NCBI RefSeq assembly: GCF_009765685.1
Contig: NZ_LMUY01000074.1
Span: 49,615-113,614, forward strand
Source: Acidisphaera sp. L21
GTDB lineage: Bacteria > Pseudomonadota > Alphaproteobacteria > Acetobacterales > Acetobacteraceae
Direction of reading: 5' to 3'
Length of the DNA stretch: 64,000 nt
Below, one piece after another: positions 23,909 to 25,248 of this stretch. A program made the position numbers and the translations under genes. Every line of letters begins with the position of its first letter. Position 1 is the stretch's first letter. Below the pieces are notes generated by a model that did not search any database, was not told the origin of the DNA, and was given only the letters and a program-made list of their open reading frames with translations.

Positions 23909-24304
23909 ATGAATGCACGCAAGAATGAGACTGTCAGCGACCGACTAACCTCCGCGGCGAAAGCCAAGCAGGCGATGCTGGAGAGGTTCAAGTCCCGACC
24001 CGGTCTAGATGACCCGGCGGTTCAAGAGCGGCTGGAGGCACAGAAGGCGATCATCGCCGCCCGTGAAGCCCGCGCCGCCGAGCGCAAGGCCGCTGCGGAA
24101 GCCGAAGAAGCCCGCATCGCCGCTGAAAAGGCCGAGCAGGCACGGCTGGCAGCGCTCGAGGCCCAGGCCGAGGCAGAACGCGAAGCCCGTCGTGCCGAAG
24201 AAGTCGCCGCCGCGGATGCCGATTACAAATCCCGCGCCCTTGCTTTGGCTGCCGAGCAGAAGGCCGCCCGCGACGCCCGCTACGCCCGCCGCAAGGCGCG
24301 CTGA
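23909..24304 (+). CDS. Alpha-helical, Ala/Glu/Arg-rich protein (DUF6481-like)
   Basis: A 131-residue protein with no signal peptide. It begins SDRLTSAAKAKQAMLERFKS and is then almost wholly charged coiled coil (EARAAERKAAAEAEEARIAA and on), ending in a basic RKAR. It resembles short alphaproteobacterial proteins annotated as DUF6481, from memory. No catalytic motif is visible. The 3' end overlaps the convergent GNAT gene by 25 bases. Confidence 0.65.
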   Translation: MNARKNETVSDRLTSAAKAKQAMLERFKSRPGLDDPAVQERLEAQKAIIAAREARAAERKAAAEAEEARIAAEKAEQARLAALEAQAEAEREARRAEEVAAADADYKSRALALAAEQKAARDARYARRKAR

Positions 24305-24975
24305 TCCGCCTGACGATACGCGGGGCGACTTGTGCGCCCCGCTTGCCGCCGCTTCTGGGGTACTGGCGGCCCCCGCTCCACACCAATGATCCACGCGGCA
24401 TGTGGCCCCACGGTCGACCGTAGCCGCCGGTGCCGGAACACCCGGCGCGCCTTGGCCGCTACGGCCGCCAGGATGAATTCCGCCAGATCGGCCGCCTGAA
24501 ACGGCACTGGCAGATCGAACTCCAGCACCAGTTCATCGGTGGCGACGTTGCGCCCGACGATATGGAACCCGAACCGGTTATAAAGATGCAGCGCCCGACT
24601 GTTCTCGGGCGCCACCAGGAGCCGTATGCGGCGGCAACCCTCCACGCCACGGAGCCGGGCCATTGCCGCCAGCAAGGCGCTGCGGCCGTAACCGCCTCCC
24701 TCCTGCCGACGGTCGATCGCGAGCCAGCCAAGCCACCAGCAGGCGCCGTCGCGCCGGTCGGGGTGAACGACATAGAACCCGATCAAACCCTCGCTCGCCT
24801 CGATGGCGATCAGGGAAGAGGCCGGGTTGCGTTTGACACTTGTGAGAATGTCGCCGATCGGCCCGATGAACCGGTCCGCCCGCGAAGGGTCGAATTCGAT
24901 TTGGCGAATGGCATCCAATTCGGACGATAGCAGTCGTCGGTAAGATGGGGGCGCGAAGCCCCTAAGGGATAGCAT
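24280..24975 (-). CDS. GNAT family N-acetyltransferase
   Basis: A 231-residue protein with a GNAT fold in residues 10-150. The acetyl-CoA loop is RRQEGGGYGRSALLAAM, and RIRLLVAPENSRALHLYNRFGF is the usual beta5-alpha4 region. The C-terminal ~75 residues are basic and low in predicted structure, and overlap the convergent gene, so the end may be poorly conserved. The substrate is unknown. It lies downstream of tRNA-Pro, behind an unusual hairpin-rich spacer. Confidence 0.75.
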   Translation of the reverse strand: MLSLRGFAPPSYRRLLSSELDAIRQIEFDPSRADRFIGPIGDILTSVKRNPASSLIAIEASEGLIGFYVVHPDRRDGACWWLGWLAIDRRQEGGGYGRSALLAAMARLRGVEGCRRIRLLVAPENSRALHLYNRFGFHIVGRNVATDELVLEFDLPVPFQAADLAEFILAAVAAKARRVFRHRRLRSTVGPHAAWIIGVERGPPVPQKRRQAGRTSRPAYRQADQRALRRA

Positions 24976-25000
24976 GAAACTCTCTGATTTGGAGAAACGG

Positions 25001-25138
25001 GAGCGAACGCTCTGCTGCCGGGTAAACCGGCCAACAACCGCTTTAGGTGCACGCCCGGATACTATCCGGGCTAAAAACCTCTCTCATGGGCACACAGTAG
25101 TCTTTGTGCCCCCGGGCCAGCAAGCGAATTGCGATGAG
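25001..25138. other. Hairpin-rich spacer between tRNA-Pro and the GNAT gene
   Basis: About 200 bases without a convincing gene hold several inverted repeats: GAGC/GCTC at 25001-25012; GCCGG/CCGGC at 25017-25031; GCCCGGAT/ATCCGGGC at 25053-25071, enclosed by AGGT/ACCT (25045, 25077); GGGCACA/TGTGCCC at 25088-25111; GCAA/TTGC at 25120-25132; and CTCAT/ATGAG (25083, 25134) closing the last two. On the minus strand the region follows tRNA-Pro and leads into the GNAT gene. It could be an RNA leader, a small RNA or tRNA 3' processing structures. I do not recognise a known riboswitch, 6S, SRP, tmRNA or RNase P core. Confidence 0.45.
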
Positions 25139-25174
25139 GTAGACGCCGAGGTTGCAAACGCTTGGTCGCCAGAA

Positions 25175-25248
25175 TCGGGCAGGCGGGATTCGAACCCACG
25201 ACCCTCAGTCCCCCAGACTGATGCGCTACCAGGCTGCGCTACTGCCCG
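25175..25248 (-). tRNA. tRNA-Pro (anticodon GGG)
   Basis: The minus strand folds as a full cloverleaf: acceptor CGGGCAG/CTGCCCG, D-arm AGCGCAGCCTGGTAGCGC, anticodon stem CAGT/ACTG with loop CTGGGGG (anticodon GGG) and the T-arm GTGGGTTCGAATCCCGC. The discriminator is A and CCA is not encoded. The AGCGCAGCCTGGTAGCGC D-arm is typical of tRNA-Pro. Confidence 0.93.

Follow-up and report, generated by a model that had tools for sequence, protein, structure and literature searches.

The window analysed here, a stretch of 64,000 nucleotides from Acidisphaera sp. L21, contains a 199-base spacer (24976–25174) between a tRNA-Pro (GGG) gene (25175–25248) and a gene for a GNAT-family N-acetyltransferase (24280–24975), both on the − strand. 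Among the inverted repeats of the spacer, GCCCGGATA/TATCCGGGC (25053–25071) forms nine perfect pairs, GGGCACACAG/CTTTGTGCCC (25088–25111) and GGCCAGCAAGCG/CGCTTGGTCGCC (25115–25170) pair at 90% and 83%, respectively, and several shorter repeats are present besides. The + strand RNA of the spacer folds to −80.6 kcal/mol against −63.8 kcal/mol in shuffled sequences (z −3.8; reached by 0/200 shuffles), a z-value unmatched on either strand by any of 100 window tiles of 199 nt. On the − strand, the presumed direction of transcription, the RNA deviates less (z −1.9; 10/200 shuffles) and is moderately unusual for the window, being equalled by 16% of the 100 tiles, whose z-values are noisier (20 shuffles each). 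The repeats, together with folding against shuffles and tiles, bear out the density of at least five inverted repeats claimed in a preliminary description of the spacer, most strongly on the + strand. That description had also failed to match the spacer to a known RNA class. Rfam searches of the window at gathering and relaxed thresholds agree, returning tRNA only and no family for the spacer, and the search for DNA homologues of the spacer gave nothing beyond short chance matches (397 family genomes, plasmids, one 22-mer in GTDB contigs).

The GNAT gene encodes a protein of 231 residues (Pfam PF00583, E 2.9e-14), for which AlphaFold models a confident GNAT domain at residues 11–157 followed by a disordered tail. 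Among solved sequences, spermine/spermidine acetyltransferases come closest (E 4e-13), and sequence profiles and fold both place the protein nearest polyamine and related acetyltransferases at low identity. The closest solved GNAT structures are SpeG/PaiA/BltD-like polyamine acetyltransferases, from which the window protein differs by its extra C-terminal tail and an identity of 15–26%; the likeness is one of sequence and fold. GNAT homologues are patchily distributed, occurring in 15 of 394 family genomes with the window's own counted, and none turned up outside the family in searches of plasmids, of IMG/VR contigs and of 162 genomes drawn from the whole class. Defence-system models gave no match.

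The 15 loci from family genomes and three further distinct loci from a scan of GTDB contigs, with host names Roseomonas, Roseococcus, Rubritepida and Rhodovarius from that scan, made up a set of 18. The comparison spans only about six independent clades. The 420 bases upstream of every GNAT homologue were read for leader features. These loci sit at unrelated places and the GNAT protein is the sole protein family common to all of them, which makes the leader plan described below independent of gene neighbourhood.

At 11 of the 18 loci, from several Acetobacteraceae genera, a short upstream ORF (uORF) of 14 or 16 codons lies at the same place, −112 to −160 from the GNAT ATG. The window uORF (25087–25043, − strand) has 14 codons and would encode MREVFSPDSIRACT before its stop; its counterparts read MEKEHRPVRTRACD, MEKEYSPARTRACD, MKKGFRPGSSRACA, MKKDFRPGSSRACA, MKKGSRSGSSRARA, MTETHVPARTRTCD, MTKGSFPARTRTCD, MTKGIFPVSTRTCD, MSTPAENGPAVHRALV and MSFGEEHGPVGHRACI, each likewise followed by a stop. 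The layout is well preserved in this comparison: an ATG is present in 11/11, the only length change is of 6 nt, and the stop falls at one aligned position as TAA (1), TAG (2) or TGA (8). The C-terminus is kept as R-[AT]-x-x-stop, or R-[AT]-C-x-stop where Cys is present; the single Cys is missing in two of the 11 (L064 and L070). The remaining peptide is not visibly constrained. Amino-acid similarity of differing codons equals the mean of column-shuffled alignments (p 0.50), third codon positions are not more variable than the others, and in close pairs such as L062/L076 all differences change the amino acid. The neutral codon test and the exclusively nonsynonymous changes in close pairs indicate that most of the uORF peptide is free to vary. 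The conserved ATG and stop, with the promoter spacing described below, suggest that the uORF may be translated. A covariance model of the uORF, run over 394 genomes, reported nothing but GNAT leaders at 39 bits or above; the next match scores 28.6 bits and falls in unrelated coding sequence, and those matches below 29 bits that were inspected were coding sequence or chance. No recognisable uORF precedes the GNAT gene at the five Falsiroseomonas-like loci (L065–L069), L075 or L086. The Falsiroseomonas-like loci have other common blocks about 60–320 nt upstream of GNAT, GAAATAT...CTGTCA and, at the start codon, GCAGGATCACATG; in three of them (L066, L068 and L069) the GNAT gene adjoins a tRNA-Leu (GAG). 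Rfam matches in the relatives' loci comprised tRNA and one suhB/mmgR small RNA (L071:940–1013, − strand), which precedes the uORF by about 320 nt and is outside the leader.

A promoter model run over the 150 bases before the uORF ATGs had a single clear best position, at which about 6 nt separate the end of the −10 box from the ATG. The score across the 11 leaders is reached by 0/2000 cyclic-shift nulls, and the same result is obtained with one sequence per clade. In the window the corresponding sigma-70-like promoter is weak by itself and consists of TTGCTG at 25118–25123 (−35) and TACTGT at 25094–25099 (−10) on the − strand, separated by 18 nt. A consensus promoter scanner did not call this promoter, so the evidence for this promoter is comparative. 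Shine-Dalgarno sequences before the uORFs are weak or absent in most leaders, L077 being the exception, and no consistent one is seen. Together with the position of the −10 box this suggests that the mRNA probably begins at or near the uORF AUG and that the uORF is leaderless. Most likely, as judged from these sequence comparisons, the spacer comprises the promoter of the − strand GNAT mRNA and its 5′ leader, the leader taking up about 110 of its 199 bases and the promoter and tRNA trailer the remainder.

The tRNA-Pro gene itself is a neighbour outside the leader system. The preliminary description had offered three readings of the spacer, namely a structured leader for the GNAT gene, a small RNA processed from the tRNA-Pro transcript, and a former integration site beside a tRNA. 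The first is supported, since the same leader plan recurs at homologous GNAT genes in unrelated genomic positions, and its uORF had been overlooked; the other two are not. An imperfect long hairpin (25115–25170) does lie immediately behind tRNA-Pro, which speaks for a small RNA or 3′ trailer cut from that transcript; it belongs to a fold far more stable as + than as − strand RNA. However, the promoter separates tRNA from leader here, the other leader loci examined have no adjoining tRNA-Pro, the conserved part tracks the GNAT gene, and relatives that possess tRNA-Pro lack the spacer sequence, making this origin very unlikely. A former integration site would be in keeping with the patchy GNAT distribution and with the frequent use of tRNA genes as attachment sites, but is extremely unlikely given that the tRNA 3′ end is single-copy in both window and genome and that the GNAT gene has no plasmid or viral copy. 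In about 20 relatives, moreover, MerR and ihfA homologues are found 5′ of tRNA-Pro, an arrangement common in the family; the spacer is not conserved in these relatives.

Three structural elements follow the promoter. Hairpin P0, the nine-pair repeat at 25053–25071, lies inside the uORF. Across the 11 leaders 92% of its cells are paired, with no covariation beyond chance; its core never varies, so covariation is uninformative here. The kept uORF residues, Arg followed by Ala or Thr, overlap P0. The branched stem P1 (24996–25042, − strand) pairs AGCGG (25042–25038) with CCGTT (25000–24996) and encloses hairpins at 25036–25013 and 25012–25001. In the comparison its 5′ arm begins directly after the uORF stop and the stem ends near the GNAT start, with at least one hairpin enclosed. 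P1 is strongest in L063, L064 and L070, has p ≤0.01 singly in 3/11 sequences and reaches a combined p of 0.005 with one value per clade; in the window it is weak, 26% of shuffles equalling it. Perfect or near-perfect arms occur as CCTGACAG/CTGTCAGG in L064, CCTGACGA/TCGTCAGG in L063 and L077, and TGAAGAC/GTCTTCA in L074, and in the best cases, several relatives, P1 pairs with the GNAT Shine-Dalgarno region. The stem is moderately supported by these sequences. RNAalifold on the MAFFT alignment found P0 alone, P1 being missed because its arms lie at varying distances. In the window sequence only, a weak small hairpin (24981–24995, − strand; TCTC/GAGA) may cover the weak Shine-Dalgarno-like GAGAG of GNAT.

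The third element, the start-codon hairpin P3 (24948–24962, − strand; GGGGC/GCCCC), falls in GNAT codons 5–10. It is present in 16 homologues, those lacking the uORF included, with 87.5% of cells paired, eight double changes and compensatory changes at three of its five pairs; its covariation score is 0.34 compared with 0.13 in shuffles (0/500). L065–L069 keep the start-codon hairpin despite the missing uORF.

These features suggest that GNAT is controlled by translational attenuation through a leaderless uORF, a reading that we consider probable, with reservations. Transcription would start at or beside the A of the uORF ATG, and leaderless initiation would read the uORF, whose stop abuts the 5′ arm of P1; P1 would reach to just before the GNAT start, and P3 would form in the first GNAT codons. 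If the uORF were read fast, P1 would re-form and GNAT translation would stay low. A ribosome that paused over the closing R-[AT]-C-x-stop of the uORF would instead hold the 5′ arm of P1 open and allow GNAT to be translated. The stall, this direction of control and a signal that causes the stall are all predicted from the arrangement. No intrinsic terminator was found, which points to translational control and makes transcription attenuation of the intrinsic-terminator type unlikely; Rho-dependent effects on the leader may occur.

A serious rival is an RNA-only regulatory leader, a riboswitch or protein-binding element transcribed from the same promoter, in which the ATG...stop frame is incidental. 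It would account for uORF substitutions that show no peptide constraint and for conserved letters that largely coincide with P0 and its flanks, and P3 and P1 are themselves RNA structures. Against it, every one of the 11 leaders keeps its ATG at the predicted transcript start, the frame changes length only once, by 6 nt, its stop is retained as any of three codons, and the leader has no Rfam match. We regard the RNA-only leader as possible but unlikely. Another explanation dispenses with regulation altogether, the uORF and hairpins simply fixing a constant low level of GNAT by translational coupling or structure-assisted re-initiation. A stem that brings the uORF stop close to the GNAT start, in a leader with no known ligand, speaks for it; the elaborate conserved layout, the conserved uORF C-terminus and the several hairpins around the start site speak against it, and this explanation appears doubtful.

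The proposed uORF attenuation has several known counterparts. In the drug-inducible erm and cat attenuators a leader peptide is combined with a stem that sequesters the Shine-Dalgarno sequence, and cat genes encode acetyltransferases. The GNAT leader would have the same plan and also precedes an acetyltransferase gene, but the window GNAT has no known drug substrate and the leader peptide is unrelated. In the E. coli topAI-yjhQ-yjhP operon, ribosome stalling on the toiL uORF is proposed to open a stem (PMC12121999). Both toiL and the GNAT uORF are short, lie in a structured leader and are followed by a stem, putative in the case of GNAT, between the uORF and the ribosome-binding site of the next gene. 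However, the operon that toiL controls, through Rho, is of the toxin-antitoxin kind, and the GNAT uORF appears leaderless; the likeness is one of layout. Stalling by chloramphenicol is strongest when an Ala, Ser or Thr codon has just been read (PMC12121999). toiL has none of these codons, whereas in the GNAT uORF an Ala or Thr codon is kept at the third position before the stop, by analogy a hint toward a chloramphenicol-type signal that serves as a lead, not as evidence of a drug signal. According to Canestrari et al. 2020, as cited in PMC9031893, leaderless polycysteine short ORFs of mycobacteria are attenuators of the following gene. As described there, they resemble the GNAT uORF in being short and in the leaderless start and attenuator role proposed for it; the GNAT uORF lacks their Cys run. 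If the proposal is correct, the GNAT leader would be a leaderless uORF attenuator in Alphaproteobacteria beyond the leaders of amino-acid biosynthesis.

The other end of the GNAT gene is also conserved. The C-terminal segment RLRSTVGPHAAWIIGVERGPP (24364–24426, − strand) ends in RGPP at residues 201–204 (24364–24375), and its consensus RLRxRxGPHAARVIGVERGPP is in frame in 16/18 homologues and out of frame in one more. Pairwise differences at first, second and third codon positions of the tail are 0.21, 0.15 and 0.53; third positions vary and the first two are kept, which indicates that selection acts on the protein. Similarity stops right after RGPP, where unrelated tails of 1–95 residues follow with a mean identity of 12% over their first four positions. 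As a general repeat in other family proteins, the C-terminal motif gave weak matches only. RGPP lies at residue 196–202 in 16/18 homologues, 39–45 residues past the enzyme domain. The ribosome exit tunnel holds roughly forty-odd residues, so an arrested chain would hold the enzyme domain folded outside.

RGPP is reported to be the strongest arrest motif of the RAPP type and, in many bacterial phyla, the four-residue sequence that is avoided most (PMC12992588). The motif by itself is insufficient for arrest (PMC12992588), so that RGPP arrest in GNAT is a prediction; a second translational control at the 3′ end of the gene through such arrest is nevertheless likely from the conserved tail. The RAPP/RGPP arrest peptides ApdA, ApdP, ApcA and Streptomyces proteins (PMC12992588, PMC10951233) likewise are small proteins with the motif near the C-terminus and a flexible segment before it, and the longest RGPP-bearing GNAT ORF, at 300 residues, is within the arrest-protein size of about 300 or less. 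In contrast to these, GNAT is a folded, presumably cytosolic enzyme whose arrest is predicted, and it has no conserved downstream gene to regulate: none is common to the GNAT loci, and the next gene in the window is convergent. The literature searched contained neither a GNAT with RGPP arrest nor this leader.

With a uORF before the gene and RGPP at the end of the enzyme, control of GNAT seems to be ribosome-based. A bolder and rather improbable extension is that each end of GNAT is coupled to the ribosome. The leaderless uORF would gate synthesis and RGPP would stall the ribosome after the enzyme domain emerges, the enzyme then acting while tethered or being released only by a ribosome event, with no downstream gene involved. 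A self-regulating arrest enzyme was not found described in the literature as a use of RGPP arrest. Were the proposed ribosome-based control of GNAT true, a gene family would keep the strongly avoided RGPP at the end of an enzyme, apparently never needing read-through; what arrest does without a downstream gene, and which signal an R-[AT]-C-x leader answers, would become testable.

Two minor features of the 3′ region were also observed. In a Rhodopila MAG (L086:3001–3720) the GPHAAQVIGVARGPP tail lies in another frame than the GNAT start, owing either to a possible frameshift or to a sequencing error. In the window, a DUF6481 gene (23909–24304, + strand) converges on GNAT and overlaps its 3′ end by 25 nt, entirely within the unconserved tail after RGPP.
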